The notes below the pieces were generated by a model, which saw only the letters and a list, made by a program, of their open reading frames with translations, was not told where the DNA came from and did no database searches. From Haloarcula sp. CBA1127 (lineage in GTDB: Archaea > Halobacteriota > Halobacteria > Halobacteriales > Haloarculaceae): 64,000 nucleotides of DNA. This document shows, piece by piece, positions 28,727 to 58,061 of the stretch. Where the stretch lies: the NCBI RefSeq assembly GCF_001485575.1, contig NZ_BCNB01000004.1, forward strand, positions 1-64,000. Direction: 5' to 3'. The position numbers and the translations under genes are program-made. The first letter of the stretch is position 1. Each line of letters starts with the position of its first letter.

Positions 28727-29445
28727 ACACCGGGTTTCCGGTGAAATCTGAGAGATACTGAGACTTCGCACGCACACCGGATTTCCGGTGAAATCCAAAT
28801 CAGCCAAATCACCGCTGAGTGGAACCACACGCACACCGGGTTTCCGGTGAAACAGAGAGCCATAGCAGTAACCAAGAACGCTCCGTATCAACTACTATTG
28901 CGTCAACTGGGGAGCGTAGACAGACACACCAGATTTCCGGTGAAATTGCCCAATAGAGAGAGTATAGCTGCTAAATCCATTGGTTACAAAAGGAATGTTC
29001 CTATGCTATCTGCGGATTCAGGGAAATCTGCAGGAGGAAGAACAAATGGAACCCATATCAGCAAGGAAATGACCAGATGCTATCTTTATTGCTATGTCTG
29101 ACATAGTTTTATATACAATCCTAGCGTGACATTCCAGCGGCTGAATCGCTTTTCATAGATTAAAGCGAGATTTTCTCGCTTGTGATTTTCATCACTCCAA
29201 TCGAAAACACTCCACAGAACCGTTCTATCCTATGTATCTCGAGATTTCTGTCTCTGTTCTACTCCGGTATTTCCTTGGCTATCCCGCCAATGCGGATGAG
29301 GTAGATCGAAGTTGAAACCATGTTTCCAGTGCATCTTAACCCCCGTTTCACCTGGACACTAAACACCCTCTATACGCTTTTCACCGGAAACGTGGTGTGT
29401 GTGTCTCGGGGAAAGTATCAAGACGTTTCACCGGAAACCCGGTGT
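28727..29445. repeat. Replication origin 2: origin-recognition-box-like repeats upstream of initiator 2
   Basis: The consensus is TTTCACCGGAAACCCGGTGT, itself partly palindromic (CACCGG...CCGGTG). Four copies in one orientation lie at 28727-28746, 28774-28793, 28833-28852 and 28926-28945. Two inverted copies lie at 29379-29398 and 29426-29445. Three more follow the initiator gene. Between the sets is an A/T-rich stretch (28950-29340) that could unwind. It also contains a small perfect hairpin (AAGCGAG/CTCGCTT, 29163-29181). The last copy ends 7 bp before the initiator ATG. No gene lies in this region. Confidence 0.85.
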
Positions 29446-29452
29446 ACAAGCA

Positions 29453-30661
29453 ATGTCCGACTCTGACGATCTCTTCATTCTTGAAGATCCCATTTTCGTG
29501 AACAAGGAACTGCTTGAAATCAGCCATCTCCCGGAGGAGGATCGCATCGTTGGTCGAGATGAAGAAATCAAGCAACTGGCTAATGCGGTAAATCCCGCAA
29601 TCTTTGGCCAGAGTCCTAGCAACATCCTCCTGTATGGGAAGACTGGAACCGGGAAGTCTCTCTGTGCAAAATACGTTTCTCGTCAACTGGTCGATACCGC
29701 ATCTGAGGAGGGTATCAACGCTGTCTACGCATATGTGGATTGTGCCCAGGACAGCACCGAAACCCAGTCTGTGCAAACGATTGCGGACTCAGTAAATACG
29801 GAGGAGAATGATATCTACATTCCCGACAAGGGAATTAGCACTGCAACCTACTACAAGCGTCTCTGGCGGATTCTCGATATGCATTATGACGTCGTCCTCA
29901 TAATCCTCGACGAGATCGACAAACTCGAAGACGACGACATCCTGATGCAACTGTCACGAGCTGGAGAGGCTGGAAAAATTGAAGACTGTAAGATTGGTGT
30001 CATCGGAATTAGCAACAAAATCAAGTATAAGGATCGGATGGATGAGCGGGTCAAGTCCAGTCTTTGCGAACGAGAATTTGTGTTCCCGCCCTACGACGCT
30101 AATCAGCTCAATGAAATCATGAGTGCACGGAGCGACGCATTCAGAGAGGGAGTACTCGAAGGTGGTGTTATCCCTCGGGCAGCTGCACTGGCAGCTCGTG
30201 AGCACGGCGATGCACGAAAAGCGATTGACATACTTCGATATGCAGGTGAAATTGCCCAATCATCGGACATGAATACGGTTCCAGAAGACTTCGTTGTTCA
30301 AGCTCGAGAGCGGGCTGAGACTGACCGGTTCCGTGAACTCATTAGCGGCTCAACGCCACATTCTCGATATGTACTACAGGCGCTGACTATCCTTTCGGTT
30401 GATAATGCTGGCAATGGAGCTGGTGATATCGGTTTCCGAACAACCCGAATCTACGACGTGTACGAAGACATTTGCCGTCAGGAAGGCTCTGATCCTCTCT
30501 CGTTACGACGCGTCCGTGACCTTCTCAAGGAACACGCTTTCTTAGATATTATCGAACAAACGCGCCACAGTGGTGGTAGTGCAGAGGGGAGCTATACAGA
30601 GCATCAGCTCCTGGAAGACCCAGATGTCGTGCAACAGGTGCTCGAAGATACAATCAGCTGA
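29453..30661 (+). CDS. Orc1/Cdc6 replication initiator 2
   Basis: I take ATG 29453 (MSDSDDLFILEDPIFVNKEL, 402 aa). The upstream extension to 29399 would be translated from the origin repeats themselves. Walker A is YGKTGTGKS (about residue 63), Walker B is IILDEIDKL (about 147), and GVIGISNKI is the sensor 1 region. The C-terminal winged helix contains TTRIYDVYEDICR and SLRRVRDLLKEHAFLDI. It is close in sequence to initiator 3 (34243), sharing EDPIF.NKELL, the GRDEEI-type motif and FPPYDANQL, yet its flanking repeats are unrelated to those of initiator 3. A repeat 7 bp before the start suggests autoregulation. Confidence 0.93.
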   Translation: MSDSDDLFILEDPIFVNKELLEISHLPEEDRIVGRDEEIKQLANAVNPAIFGQSPSNILLYGKTGTGKSLCAKYVSRQLVDTASEEGINAVYAYVDCAQDSTETQSVQTIADSVNTEENDIYIPDKGISTATYYKRLWRILDMHYDVVLIILDEIDKLEDDDILMQLSRAGEAGKIEDCKIGVIGISNKIKYKDRMDERVKSSLCEREFVFPPYDANQLNEIMSARSDAFREGVLEGGVIPRAAALAAREHGDARKAIDILRYAGEIAQSSDMNTVPEDFVVQARERAETDRFRELISGSTPHSRYVLQALTILSVDNAGNGAGDIGFRTTRIYDVYEDICRQEGSDPLSLRRVRDLLKEHAFLDIIEQTRHSGGSAEGSYTEHQLLEDPDVVQQVLEDTIS

Positions 30662-31303: not shown

Positions 31304-31469
31304 CAACTTCTCTGTCTTAACCAACGCGGGTCTTCAACGATATGTCTGTTGGTTAAATAGAGTCTCCGTTAGACAGAACTGCCGAAAGAGCCCGTAAATA
31401 CCCTGTGAGTGCACTATCCATCTGTGCCTCGCAGTTTTGTATAAGGGCGACTTGTTGGAGATCTGGGTG

Positions 31470-31733
31470 CTACTCCTCGATGCCAGCCTCCCAGCCCTTG
31501 TGGAAGTACGCTAACGCCAAGTCGGAGTCGAAGGACCGTCCGGAAGGAACGTGCTGCAAGACTTCTTGTTCTGGAATTGGTTCAACCACGCCTTCATCAA
31601 GCAGACTGTTGACGATATCGCGGCCCCGTTACTCATCGATCTCGACAGTGTCGGGACGCTGCCGGTCGCGGTCCTGGGCGATCTGTTCACGCTCAAAGCG
31701 CTCGTGGTCTGGAACTGTTTCGGTTGGGTCCAT
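31470..31733 (-). pseudogene. Small haloarchaeal protein (DUF8069-like) interrupted by an in-frame TAA
   Basis: From ATG 31733 the frame reads MDPTETVPDHERFEREQIAQ ... PDTVEIDE, then TAA at about 31629-31631. It continues in the same frame as RGRDIVNSLLDEGVVEPIPE and ALAYFHKGWEAGIEE to the real stop. Without the TAA codon the two parts would form one 86-residue family-like protein, so three bases appear inserted between GATGAG and CGGGGC. The family (number from memory) has no known function. Confidence 0.6.
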
Positions 31734-31854: not shown

Positions 31855-32619
31855 TCAGTTCGGGAGCTTCGGTGCTATCACGAACTGCATTGCTCCATCG
31901 GCGTCAGGGAATTCGGATTTCAGCACGAGCGGTACTGAGTCTCCGATATGGAGAACCCGATTCGTGCCGTCTGGTAGGCCAGCGTTTGCCGATTTGACGA
32001 GTGATGAGTCGAGTTTTACTTCCACGTCCGCAGGCTCGAAGGCGATGAGATCGGTGTCTTCCCACCGGTAGGTCATGCTGTCAGTGTCACCGTCTGCGGC
32101 AAACCGTACCTCTCTGGTTTCTGAATCAACGGTGAGGTCAAACCGGTCGGCAAGCATATCCGCTGCGTCAAGACCGAGCGAGATGTCGTCTGGACTCAGG
32201 TGGACGGTTGCCGGGATGTCTATATCTGGCATCTCGACAGGGTAGCGGAGCGATTCAACCGTCTCAAGATCGATAGTTCGCGTTATTCCGTCGATATTGA
32301 TTTCCAGTGTGCTATTCGCTGCATCGAGTGCGAACTGTGCAAGGTCGCCTGCATCGCCGATCGAGAGCGCATACGCCTCTATTGACCGTTCTATTGCCCC
32401 GAAGCAGACCTCTATGACGGCTGTGTAGTACCCGTCCTGTGCTTGGAGTGTGTCGACGACTTCGAGGAGTCGACAGGCTTTGGTCAGCTGCGTCTCCCAG
32501 TCTGCGTCGGCGCTGATTCCCTCCTCGAATACCGTCCTCCCTCTGCCGACCATCTCGAAGGCGTCTTGCGCCCGTTCAATGGCGTCGAGCACGGCAGCAG
32601 GGTCCGAACCGTTACTCAT
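31855..32619 (-). CDS. HEPN-domain half fused to the C-terminal half of PCNA
   Basis: I take ATG 32619 (MSNGSDPAAVLDAIE), which overlaps the end of the nucleotidyltransferase gene as ATGAGTAA. Residues ~1-88 match the first half of the HEPN partner at 57561 (ACRLL..., YYT.VIE..F.AIER). From about residue 90 (GDAGDLAQFALDAANSTLEI) the sequence is that of haloarchaeal PCNA: EMPDIDIPATVHLSPDDISL, LDAADMLADRFDL, IAFEPADVEVKLDSS and the final MQFVIAPKL. The second half of the HEPN domain, with its catalytic Arg/His region, and the first PCNA domain are both absent. It is either a deletion fusion or a designed fusion; the frame is clean for ~250 codons. Confidence 0.75.
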   Translation of the reverse strand: MSNGSDPAAVLDAIERAQDAFEMVGRGRTVFEEGISADADWETQLTKACRLLEVVDTLQAQDGYYTAVIEVCFGAIERSIEAYALSIGDAGDLAQFALDAANSTLEINIDGITRTIDLETVESLRYPVEMPDIDIPATVHLSPDDISLGLDAADMLADRFDLTVDSETREVRFAADGDTDSMTYRWEDTDLIAFEPADVEVKLDSSLVKSANAGLPDGTNRVLHIGDSVPLVLKSEFPDADGAMQFVIAPKLPN

Positions 32620-33307
32620 CGTTGGCACCCTCCTCTAGAAGGAGGTTTTCGACGGTTTCGAAATCGCTCGTCTTGTAGATCGGAATGCCTGAGACGATAA
32701 TTTCCCGAATATCATCCGTGTAGGCTGGAATCGCCTGGACAGCCTCAACGTCGATATCGTAGGCGTACCGGTCCCCATCGAATACCATGTCTTCGAGGTC
32801 CCGGGCGACGGCGTTCGCTTCCCGCTGGCTCTCTGCCCGCCCGGAGCGAGTGAGGACCCAGATATCGATATCGCTCCGTCGGTCAGCATCGCCCCGAGCG
32901 ACGCTGCCGTACAGTATGATTCCGACAACGTCGGTGATATTGTCACGGAGCTTCGTTACCGCATTTTTGACCGGTTTGTGATACTCAGGTTGGGGAATCC
33001 GAAGAATAGGATCGTCTGGGATAGACAGTCGGTCCCTGTTGATCTGTACGAGTCGTTGGTTGCTTTCGGGAGATTCAATGACTAGGTCATTCGAACTGAG
33101 AACATCTATTGCTCGTCGCACTGACTGGTGTGAATGGCCGATCTGTGTCGCGAGTTCTCTCAACGAAAAGTCGCTAAATCGGTGGTTGGTTAAAAATAGA
33201 AGAATATCGCTCGTCGCTTTGTGTTTGAATAAATCTGGATTCGAAGTGGGTATCGGGAGCGAAACAGAGGCACCGACTAAATCAGCTCCTTCCGTCTGAC
33301 GGTTCAT
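32612..33307 (-). CDS. MNT-type nucleotidyltransferase with N-terminal winged helix (antitoxin-like)
   Basis: The start is 33307 (MNRQTEGADLVG) or 33319. Residues 30-95 form a winged helix (FSLRELATQIGHSHQSVRRA). Residues 130-200 form a minimal nucleotidyltransferase domain with GSVARGDADRRSDIDIWV, the GSx10DxD active site. In MntA-HepT systems the MNT enzyme AMPylates and silences the HEPN RNase partner. Here the downstream partner is the truncated HEPN-PCNA fusion. The 229-aa gene at 56888 has the same domain order. Confidence 0.85.
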   Translation of the reverse strand: MNRQTEGADLVGASVSLPIPTSNPDLFKHKATSDILLFLTNHRFSDFSLRELATQIGHSHQSVRRAIDVLSSNDLVIESPESNQRLVQINRDRLSIPDDPILRIPQPEYHKPVKNAVTKLRDNITDVVGIILYGSVARGDADRRSDIDIWVLTRSGRAESQREANAVARDLEDMVFDGDRYAYDIDVEAVQAIPAYTDDIREIIVSGIPIYKTSDFETVENLLLEEGANDE

Positions 33308-33425
33308 ATGCCGTAACACGGACCACTGGTATAAAAATATTATATACTTTCCAGAGTTTGCATAAGTATCGAATCGGTATCAACACTACTATACCTAGGG
33401 AGACTGGTATCAGTGAGCGGACCTC

Positions 33426-33529
33426 AGTACGTTCAGTCGAGGGGATAATCCGGCACCACGATTCGTGATCTACCGACGATGGCGAGGTAATTCGTACTGA
33501 TCGTGATTATCCCCTCGACTGAACGTACT
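33426..33529. repeat. 25-bp perfect inverted repeat with a 54-bp spacer
   Basis: AGTACGTTCAGTCGAGGGGA followed by TAATC (33426-33450) reappears exactly as its reverse complement at 33505-33529. The pairing stops sharply at both ends. It lies between the MNT promoter and the first origin 3 repeat. It could be a cruciform, a terminator-like RNA hairpin, a small non-autonomous element or a recombination site. Nothing in the spacer looks coding. Confidence 0.85.
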
Positions 33530-33552
33530 AACCTCAGAGAATACGGGGACAC

Positions 33553-34164
33553 ACACCCCGGGTGTCGAGTGTAAATCAACAGGATGGTGGGTACCCGATC
33601 AGGACACTGTGGCACATCTGATATTGTTAACTGCTGTTTCCAGGTGGTAAAGGACTCTAAATTCTTCTTTTAGCTTTTCGCTCTACTACTAGCTAGAAGT
33701 TATTTATATATTTTATTGTACCAGCAATAAATGAAATATATAATGTGTTATGAGCAGGTTTGAGACAGATATAGAAAACTCTCAGTATCATTTATAAGTG
33801 AATCTAGTCCTGTAGTGCATGGCTATCTCTGGACGACCCATGAGTTACACAGCAATCGCTACTGAGTTACCAATCTGTCCGCAGACAGTATGTACACTCG
33901 TGCTAACCGCATTTCTCCCTACTCTGACTAACGGTGACACGGTCTTAGACAGTCAGCATGGACAGTTTACACTCGACACCCGGGGTGTGTGTCTTCAAAA
34001 TGTAGCTCATTAGACGCCTGAAGAGACATAGCGACTACCGGTGTTACACTCGACACCCGGAGGGGTGCACCACTTTCTTCTTTTTTGGAAATACACTATA
34101 CTATTGTTGCCGCATATACTCTAATAACGGTAGAATCAATCGTTTACACTCGACAGATGGTGTG
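33553..34164. repeat. Replication origin 3: repeats upstream of initiator 3
   Basis: The consensus is TTTACACTCGACACCCGGGG followed by TGTGT. One inverted copy is at 33553-33575. Direct copies lie at 33966-33988, 34043-34066 and 34143-34164 (the last diverged at its 3' half). Very A/T-rich DNA at 33640-33830 separates the inverted from the direct copies and is a good candidate unwinding region. Two further copies follow the initiator gene. No protein-coding gene is supported between 33320 and 34242. Confidence 0.83.
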
Positions 34165-34242
34165 TGATGGAGGTATAGTTTTATATACTACACCGACTGT
34201 CGTGTGTAATATGAGGTGGCTCCTCTGGGGTCATATATTCAT

Positions 34243-35472
34243 ATGAGTAACGAGAAACAGAGTCCCCTCGACTCAATTTGGGAAAGTGAGGATCCAATTT
34301 TCGCGAATAAAGAGCTTCTCGATATTGAACACATTCCGGATGAGGAGCGGATCATTGGTCGTGAAGATGAAATATCTAACCTTGCCAATAGCATTCATCC
34401 TGCAATCCGGGGTGGAAAGCCCAGAAACACGTTAATTTACGGAAAGACGGGAACTGGCAAGAGTCTCGTTGCCAAGCACGTTACTCAAAGTGCTGAAGAC
34501 TTCGCTCACGATGAAGGTACGAGACTTGATCGCGCATATATCGATTGTACCCAAGCAACGACAGAGACACAGGTGGTAATCAAACTCGGTCGGATATTCA
34601 ACAGACCAGATGAAACAGATATCTCTGTACCTCCTTCGGGGTTATCGACGAATGCATACTATGATCGTCTTTGGGAGATACTCGATACCCTCCATGATGT
34701 CGTTATCATCATTCTCGACGAGGTTGACAAACTCCAGGAAAACAACGTGCTAATGCAACTCTCCCGAGCTGGTGAAGCCGGGAAGATTGATTCGTGTAAG
34801 GTTGGTATCCTCGCGATCAGCAACAAAATCTCGTTTAAAGATTCTCTCGATGAGCGAGTCCTCAGTAGTCTCCAAGAGCGTGAGTTTATCTTCCCTCCCT
34901 ACGACGCAAATCAGCTCCGCGAAATTATGCGTCATCGTCAGGATGCATTTCGTGACGGTGTCCTCACCGATGATGTGATCCCTCTGGCGTCTGCATTCGC
35001 TGCACAAGAGCACGGTGATGCTCGAAAAGCACTGGATATTCTTCGAAATGCAGGCGAACTTGCAAAAGACGATAACAGTGATGTTGTGCAAGAAAACCAT
35101 GTTCGGAATGCACGTGAGCAAGCGGATATCGATCGATTCTCTAAGCTTCTCCAAGATCAGCCTACACAATCGAAAGCAGCGGTGTACGCCCTTTCATTGA
35201 TTGCAGAGGGGAGCAATCAGGAAGAGTTCCCTACTCGTAAAATCTATGAACGGTACGAGCAGCTCACGGAGTCACTAGATATTAACCCTCTCTCACAAAG
35301 ACGGATGTCTGATCGGCTGAATGAACAGGCGTTTCTAGATATCCTCGGCGTCACGGATCGGGTTGGACGCGGCCGTGGGAAAGGCATGACTAATTTTTAC
35401 TACCTTCTGGAGGAGCCTAAGGTCGTACAAAGTGCCATTGAATCTGATCAACGGTTTTCCTCCGAGCAGTAA
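34243..35472 (+). CDS. Orc1/Cdc6 replication initiator 3
   Basis: ATG 34243 (MSNEKQSPLDSIWESEDPIF) gives 409 aa and places the gene after the ATATATTCAT-type A/T run. Walker A is YGKTGTGKS (about residue 68), Walker B is IILDEVDKL (about 152), and GILAISNKI is the sensor 1 region. The winged helix holds TRKIYERYEQLTES and SQRRMSDRLNEQAFLDI. Sequence is close to initiator 2 through the AAA+ part; the winged helix is more different, as expected if it reads the distinct TTTACACTCGACA repeats around this gene. Confidence 0.93.
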   Translation: MSNEKQSPLDSIWESEDPIFANKELLDIEHIPDEERIIGREDEISNLANSIHPAIRGGKPRNTLIYGKTGTGKSLVAKHVTQSAEDFAHDEGTRLDRAYIDCTQATTETQVVIKLGRIFNRPDETDISVPPSGLSTNAYYDRLWEILDTLHDVVIIILDEVDKLQENNVLMQLSRAGEAGKIDSCKVGILAISNKISFKDSLDERVLSSLQEREFIFPPYDANQLREIMRHRQDAFRDGVLTDDVIPLASAFAAQEHGDARKALDILRNAGELAKDDNSDVVQENHVRNAREQADIDRFSKLLQDQPTQSKAAVYALSLIAEGSNQEEFPTRKIYERYEQLTESLDINPLSQRRMSDRLNEQAFLDILGVTDRVGRGRGKGMTNFYYLLEEPKVVQSAIESDQRFSSEQ

Positions 35473-35480
35473 TTCACGAT

Positions 35481-35607
35481 TTTACACTCGACAGTTGGGG
35501 TGTTTCACTCGAACTTACGGACTGATAGATCCCTAGAATATCTAAATAAGGGTCTGAATGGTGTGATACGCGATTTAATGCCTATTTACACTCGACACCT
35601 GGGGTGT
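35481..35607. repeat. Origin 3 repeats downstream of initiator 3
   Basis: Two more copies of the origin 3 repeat lie at 35481-35503 and 35585-35607, in the same orientation as those upstream, starting 9 bp after the stop codon. The following 35610-36237 stretch is A/T-rich, with scattered short palindromes (for example GATGAACTAATATATAGTTC near 35991). I can support no gene there. Confidence 0.78.
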
Positions 35608-56887: not shown

Positions 56888-57568
56888 ATGGCGAAACGAG
56901 ATATAACGGTCAGCATCGATGCATATCCTGACTCGGATACCGATGTCTTTCGTATCAGTGCCGCAGACGACATCCTACGACTGCTCGTCGATGCCCACGA
57001 TGCGGAGTTTACGATTCCCGAACTCGTCGACGCCACAGGAGTCACCCGCTCGACGGTCTGGCGGGCTGTCAGCCTCCTCGACAGTATTGGGGCTATCCAA
57101 ATTCGAGAGACGCCACAACGAAACTACATTACAATCAACCCAAACCGACTCCAGAAAGACGACCCAATCCTTGCCATTCCGCAGTCTGAGTTCCATGCAC
57201 CGATCCGGACATTCGTTGACCGCGCGCAAGCCGCGCTGACTGACGCCGACGACGTCGACGAACTACTCGGCATCGTTGTCTTTGGGAGCGTTGCTCGGGG
57301 CGAGGCTGATCGCCAGAGCGACATCGATTGTTTCGTCGTTGTCGATGGTGATCGGACGACAGCACGCCGGCGGATTACCGACGTTGTTGGTGATCTCCAG
57401 TCCGACCGCTTCGACGGTGAGCGGTTCGCGTTCGAGCCGTATGTCGAATCTGCGGAAAGCGCATATAGAGCCGGGTCAAAACTCCGTGAAATATTCGCCG
57501 AGGGAATTACGGTGTACGGCAGCGACCAACTCGACTCAGTCCGAAAGGAGGCCGTCGCCGATGAGTAG
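56888..57568 (+). CDS. MNT-type nucleotidyltransferase with winged helix (MntA-like antitoxin)
   Basis: ATG 56888 (MAKRDITVSIDAYPD) gives 226 aa. The winged helix is residues ~30-85 (FTIPELVDATGVTRSTVWRA). The nucleotidyltransferase domain has GSVARGEADRQSDIDCFVV, the GSx10DxD site. In known MntA-HepT pairs this enzyme adds AMP to the HEPN toxin. The stop overlaps the HEPN start (GATGAGTAG), so the pair is translationally coupled. The layout is the same as the pair at 31855-33307. Confidence 0.87.
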   Translation: MAKRDITVSIDAYPDSDTDVFRISAADDILRLLVDAHDAEFTIPELVDATGVTRSTVWRAVSLLDSIGAIQIRETPQRNYITINPNRLQKDDPILAIPQSEFHAPIRTFVDRAQAALTDADDVDELLGIVVFGSVARGEADRQSDIDCFVVVDGDRTTARRRITDVVGDLQSDRFDGERFAFEPYVESAESAYRAGSKLREIFAEGITVYGSDQLDSVRKEAVADE

Positions 57569-58061
57569 TACGCGAATCGAGCAACTCATCGATAACGTGC
57601 AAGCCGCGTTCGACCGTCGTCCAACAGAAATCGAAACCGGACTAGCTGTTGAGGGTGCTGCCATCCTCCAATTGCGGAAGGCCTGTCGCTTACTTGCCGG
57701 CGCTGAGGCACTTCAAAACGCGAACTACTACACGCTCGTTATCGAAGCGTCGTTCGTCGCTATCGAACGGACTGTGGAATTCCGGCTCCTTGAACGCGGA
57801 ACGATGCAGCCGGATGATCTCCCCGGGACGCATCCCGGGGTCTACCGGGAGGCGGCAGCGGCCGGTGTCTTTGGAGAATCGATGGCCGCAGACCTCGCAG
57901 ATCTCTGGCGCGATCACCGAGCAAAAACCTACTATCAGGATGGACTCGCCTCAGCAGCGCGTGCCGAAGCGATGTACGAACTCGCAACTGAGATTCATAG
58001 ATACATCACTGGGCGATCTCGAAAGGGACATGAGTGTATCTGTGGGGAGACAACACAGTAA
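57561..58061 (+). CDS. HEPN-domain protein (HepT-like toxin)
   Basis: This 166-aa all-helical protein starts MSSTRIEQLIDNVQAAFDRR. The first half (RKACRLLAGAEALQNANYYT, VIEASFVAIERTVE) matches the HEPN part of the fusion at 31855. The second half has LWRDHRAKTYYQDGLASAAR, where the Arg/His cluster replaces the usual Rx4-6H motif of HEPN RNases, so catalytic detail is uncertain. It forms a toxin-antitoxin module with the MNT gene upstream. Repeat R2 begins 53 bp downstream. Confidence 0.8.
   Translation: MSSTRIEQLIDNVQAAFDRRPTEIETGLAVEGAAILQLRKACRLLAGAEALQNANYYTLVIEASFVAIERTVEFRLLERGTMQPDDLPGTHPGVYREAAAAGVFGESMAADLADLWRDHRAKTYYQDGLASAARAEAMYELATEIHRYITGRSRKGHECICGETTQ

Follow-up and report, generated by a model that had tools for sequence, protein, structure and literature searches.

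An open reading frame that joins the N-terminal half of a HEPN protein to the C-terminal part of a PCNA clamp, found on a plasmid of the genus Haloarcula, is most likely the scar of a microhomology-mediated recombination in which both proteins would have been inactivated. We consider it very probable that an MNT-HEPN cassette was acquired and that plasmid sequence was deleted or replaced by a join at a near-repeat of HEPN and PCNA, leaving a hybrid that is probably without function. The window, that is, the whole stretch of DNA that was analyzed, comprises the first 64 kb of a 163.5-kb plasmid contig (C4), and the coordinates of its features are collected in Table 1.

Table 1. Features of the hybrid locus and its surroundings in the window
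Feature	Position	Strand	Remarks
Hybrid ORF, HEPN N-half joined to clamp C-part	31855..32619	-	254 aa + stop
HEPN-derived part, codons 1-83	32371..32619	-	keeps only the first two helices of the HEPN core
Clamp-derived part	31858..32370	-	codons 120-290 of plasmid PCNA
Junction, ATGCGCTCTCGAT	32360..32372	-	12/13 with PCNA copies; exact core CTCTCGAT at 32360-32367
MNT-HEPN cassette, truncated in the window	32360..33511	-	5' boundary 33511 common to pHH126 and G022
Intact MNT gene (HTH + nucleotidyltransferase)	32612..33307	-	motif GSVARGDADRRSDID = GSx10DxD; overlaps the hybrid by ATGAGTAA
g85 pseudogene, next after PCNA in the clamp operon	31470..31733	-	premature TAA 31629-31631
Left block collinear with G029:C9	29011..32372		94.2%; orc_A, 114-aa gene, g85, clamp 3' part
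Right flank collinear with G029:C9	35481..37569		91.5%; includes pilin gene
orc1/cdc6 gene A (left origin)	29399..30661	+
orc1/cdc6 gene B (right origin)	34216..35472	+	absent from the same place in G029:C9

The hybrid ORF was confirmed in the contig, on the minus strand and with no internal stop, so the in-frame fusion of the original prediction is real. Its residues 1-83 make up the N-terminal half of a HEPN protein that is linked to MNT and are followed by codons shared at the junction, and residues 84-254 correspond to plasmid-type PCNA from codon 120 onward, with 92-97% identity to intact copies. The HEPN match had been extended to residue 88 and the clamp half had been started at about residue 90; the HEPN origin holds, whereas the HEPN half proper ends at residue 83 and the clamp half begins with residue 84 (ALSIGDAG...). 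Likewise, the junction was expected near 32350-32365, which is the right neighborhood but not the exact span.

The closest intact HEPN protein was found on plasmid pHH126 of H. hispanica N601, with 97.7% identity over codons 1-87, whereas the HEPN protein at 57561 of the window, which had been proposed as the counterpart, is homologous at only 44% identity over residues 13-88. A Pfam scan of the hybrid returned neither a HEPN nor a PCNA match, and the HEPN partner had no match in any sequence library searched; the HEPN assignment is based on a fold search with an intact relative and the PCNA assignment on NCBIfam and PDB sequences. Most of the top matches to the AlphaFold model of the intact relative (pLDDT 77, pTM 0.77) were HEPN proteins, including HepT of the Shewanella HepT/MntA pair, with VIA Z scores from 12.6 to 8.0 among the best 20 matches, suggesting that this relative adopts a HEPN fold with core residues 37-166. 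The hybrid retains HEPN sequence up to about residue 87 and thus has no complete helical fold. As had been predicted, the catalytic region is missing: the hybrid lacks the later helices and the conserved R127-x4-Y132 of the intact protein, and no RX4-6H (RX4HXY) motif was found in it. In the intact family itself, the motif reads R-TESY-Y, without the canonical His. The same R-x4-Y pattern (RTESYY, RAKTYY) replaces the RX4HXY of HepT in HEPN partners, for example, at 57561-58058 of the window and at L051:4001-4507, and RNase activity of these partners is therefore not assured.

The MNT gene carries the GSx10DxD adenylyltransferase motif described for MntA (PMC7641770), and its predicted overlap with the hybrid is present in the window and also in pHH126. 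The pair resembles the HEPN/MNT TA modules (HepT/MntA, type VII) in this motif and in the modeled fold of the intact partner, which matches HepT and other HEPN structures. It differs from them in an extra N-terminal winged-helix domain on the MNT protein, in the score of the pHH126 MNT, which lies below the MntA equivalog cut-off (34 vs 60 bits), and in the R-x4-Y of the intact partner in place of RX4HXY, the window partner ending before the motif.

Intact plasmid PCNA copies are many, and three are encoded in the same genome (contigs C3, C5, and C9); the chromosomal PCNA (contig C6) shares only 29% identity. Extra PCNAs of haloarchaea have been reported (PMC3404096). The intact plasmid PCNA (290 aa) was homologous to Haloferax volcanii PCNA 3hi8 (E 8e-31), and the clamp part of the hybrid matched NF002222 over hybrid residues 86-252 (E 4e-19) and corresponds to approximately residues 76-244 of 3hi8. 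Since its clamp sequence sets in at about residue 76 of 3hi8, the hybrid retains domain 2 in full, together with the connecting loop and the last portion of domain 1. The first clamp domain had been described as missing, which is partly correct: Haloferax PCNA residues ~1-75 have no counterpart in the hybrid, but the last part of domain 1 is still present. The clamp part is like the plasmid- and virus-borne PCNA paralogues of haloarchaea (3hi8 family) in its homology to Haloferax PCNA, and the hybrid is unlike them in having HEPN sequence in place of the first 119 PCNA codons, which encode the N-terminal extension and most of domain 1. Among the other plasmid PCNA copies, two, at L108:12264-13328 and in L021 (H. 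amylolytica), matched in overlapping pieces (1-107, 67-262, and 234-290 in L108), which points to duplications within the clamp gene. The plasmid-type PCNA of G027 (L083:7913-9873) matched at its ends only, codons 49 and 215 being separated by ~1.6 kb of other sequence.

The usual order of the clamp operon is g345-PCNA-g85-(g183)-ArdC. In the window, this operon is a ruin, with g345 gone, PCNA decapitated, and g85 interrupted by a premature stop codon; g85 was intact in all four relatives compared.

At the junction, the HEPN parent reads GAGGCGTATGCGCTCTCGATGACC, the PCNA parents read CGAGATGCACTCTCGAT[C/T]GGCGATG, and the window reads GAGGCGTATGCGCTCTCGATCGGCGATG. When the whole HEPN gene (510 bp) was compared with the PCNA gene of the relative G029:C9 (873 bp), ATGC[G/A]CTCTCGAT was the only 12/13-bp match (8 bp exact), and short homology of both parents thus lies exactly at the breakpoint. 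In a control with shuffled HEPN codons, any 12/13 match was obtained in 16/60 trials. The near-repeat is in the same codon phase in HEPN and PCNA and encodes Ala-Leu-Ser in each; because both proteins have this tripeptide from nearly identical bases and in the same phase, the hybrid is automatically in frame. One of the two origins first suggested for the hybrid, a deletion that made a lucky frame, agrees well with these results, since intact parents exist elsewhere and the breakpoint falls on the sole 12/13-bp match; luck was hardly needed. Microhomology-mediated end joining that makes deletions has been documented in Haloferax volcanii (PMC7521656). The present case is similar to those deletions in its join at a short common sequence, and it differs from them in being a natural plasmid event between two coding genes, with a mechanism that we infer from the sequence.

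No second fusion across the junction was found in 32 Haloarcula genomes. A junction-centered query of 392 genomes of the order gave no other match across the junction, and no junction-spanning match was found in GTDB contigs (~85,000 species), PLSDB, INPHARED phage records, or IMG/VR. A PLSDB plasmid match (H70) with 90% query cover was rejected as a fusion, since its identity was 26% and the gene on which it falls carries a sliding-clamp annotation. The same fusion was thus not recovered from more than one lineage, and we met no report of a HEPN-PCNA fusion in the literature, though no literature search was aimed at exactly that. The original prediction had named the lack of a second occurrence, together with signs of relaxed selection, as the marks of a chance deletion product, and the former applies to all the genome, plasmid, and virus sets searched. 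Its other proposal, the recruitment of a toxin-type domain to clamps, gained no support, as no second case was found.

For the clamp side, the nearest relative is G029:C9 (locus L102). To the left and to the right of the event it is collinear with the window, the left block stopping exactly at 32372. Between the collinear blocks, L102 contains the rest of an intact PCNA gene, g345, and a VapBC-like pair (named from sequence alone); the window contains the HEPN fragment, the MNT gene, 455 bp without a match, and the second orc1/cdc6 gene. The hybrid is flanked by the two orc1/cdc6 genes, in line with its predicted location between two origins. A stretch of ~22 bp that is single in G029:C9 (L102:5833-5855) aligns at 34143-34165 and 35481-35503 of the window, on both sides of orc_B, and the two copies may perhaps be repeats of the origin or have been left by insertion of orc_B. 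Homology also ends at 31469, but this was rejected as a second breakpoint, since G029:C9 shows that this joint is older and shared.

The MNT-HEPN piece of the window at 32360-33511 was 94.4% identical to pHH126. In pHH126 (L032 9826-11230) and G022 (L084), the cassette extends to the HEPN stop codon, where the homology between the two ends, and the homology of pHH126, G022, and the window starts at one point (GATAATC..GATCAGTA). Because this outer boundary is common to pHH126 and G022 while their flanks differ, MNT-HEPN appears to behave as a discrete cassette that is moved among plasmids. HEPN was found to be independently broken in G022, by a frameshift near codon 74 (L084:9120-9622), and in Halorientalis salina L055, by a 61-codon in-frame deletion over the motif (L055:4001-4327), and MNT was matched over its full length in both. 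These cases suggest that loss of the toxin-type HEPN partner is recurrent, with MNT staying; by analogy with HepT/MntA (PMC7641770), such a loss should be of little cost to the host.

We propose that the ancestral plasmid had the layout orc_A-g85-PCNA-g345-VapBC-pilin, as in G029:C9, and that it would have gained a pHH126-type MNT-HEPN cassette upstream of the clamp operon. At that time or afterwards, DNA ends may have been joined at the 12/13-bp near-repeat of HEPN and PCNA, with loss or replacement of the 3' half of HEPN, of g345 and VapBC, and of PCNA codons 1-119. The hybrid may persist as a recent and harmless product, with MNT intact and the toxin-type partner disabled, and the cell still has the three intact plasmid PCNAs and the chromosomal PCNA. 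The sequence of these steps and the end-joining pathway are our reconstruction. Upstream of the MNT cassette, 455 bp (33512-33967) had no match in the fetched loci or PLSDB, so that the exact order of events was not recovered, which is a point against the scar.

The changes accumulated in the two halves were also counted. Since the split from pHH126, the HEPN half has gained 2 synonymous and 0 non-synonymous changes, and the private changes of the clamp half were 5 synonymous:1 non-synonymous vs 45:41 in relatives (Fisher p 0.21), both counts reflecting few post-fusion changes. A parsimony count on the clamp terminal branch gave 17 synonymous:0 non-synonymous changes, although most of this branch probably predates the fusion. 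The synonymous distance of the clamp half was at least 0.24 to all relatives, and the synonymous p to pHH126 was 0.086 for the HEPN half vs 0.262 for the PCNA half. The short HEPN distance of 0.086 means that the clamp branch is probably for the most part older than the join, and that the hybrid appears to be young. The fused gene itself has neither a stop codon nor, in its clamp half, an excess of amino-acid changes, which is a second point against the scar, although too few changes postdate the fusion to speak for or against selection on the hybrid. The downstream g85 of the same operon carries a nonsense mutation.

A complete type I-B CRISPR-Cas locus could also have been lost from a pHH126-like plasmid by a single HEPN-PCNA deletion, which we regard as unlikely. 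The HEPN-PCNA interval of pHH126 (15.3 kb; L032 10721-25919) contains an integrase, cas6-cas8b-cas7-cas5-cas3-cas4-cas1-cas2, a CRISPR array, and g345, and with the gene order and strands found there, a single deletion would give the window arrangement. G007 has HEPN, cas7, repeats, and PCNA in the same order, and a search of the window's genome found neither Cas1 nor a close Cas7 nor any of these repeats. However, Cas genes between HEPN and g345 were seen only in the H. hispanica lineage, the cas genes of G027 lie on the other side of orc1, and G029:C9 has VapBC and no Cas in this place; this loss is rated low because the cas position is not common to the other relatives seen. Furthermore, the pHH126 PCNA allele does not have the 12/13 match to HEPN, and the two halves of the hybrid are unequally distant from pHH126. 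A plain 15.3-kb CRISPR-Cas deletion was thus dropped as the leading explanation, given the differing layouts of G029:C9 and G027.

The open frame, the retained overlap with the MNT gene, and the few amino-acid changes in both halves would be compatible with a functional chimera, in which MNT would still be bound by the HEPN N-half and/or the clamp fragment would enter PCNA rings, so that a clamp poison or adaptor regulated by MNT would result. Such a role is very improbable, and so is a newly born gene expressed from the MNT promoter that would work either as a regulator binding both the clamp and MNT or as a dominant-negative clamp fragment. The hybrid is unique among all the sets searched, and it is devoid of the HEPN motif, half of the HEPN helices, and the N-terminal clamp residues. 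Its AlphaFold model, with an alignment of the halves only, was uninterpretable (pLDDT 34). Moreover, the in-frame join needs no selection, and the neighboring gene of the clamp operon is a pseudogene. The hybrid thus probably has neither HEPN nor clamp function. It is scarcely credible that the join of an MNT-HEPN locus to a PCNA locus is an assembly error. Several similar PCNA operons do occur in the genome, but 12/13 bp is much too short a stretch for long reads or normal k-mers to be misled by it. One and the same relative (G029:C9) is collinear on both flanks, and the missing HEPN C-half does not occur elsewhere in the genome as a close copy on a loose end.

As a fusion protein, the hybrid left by this deletion or rearrangement is probably of no importance. 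A join inside a common tripeptide can yield an in-frame hybrid without selection, and caution is warranted before in-frame fusions from single genomes are taken as functional domain links. The locus provides a natural example of haloarchaeal plasmid rearrangement near origins, where TA cassettes (MNT-HEPN and VapBC) take the same place beside the clamp operon in different plasmids.
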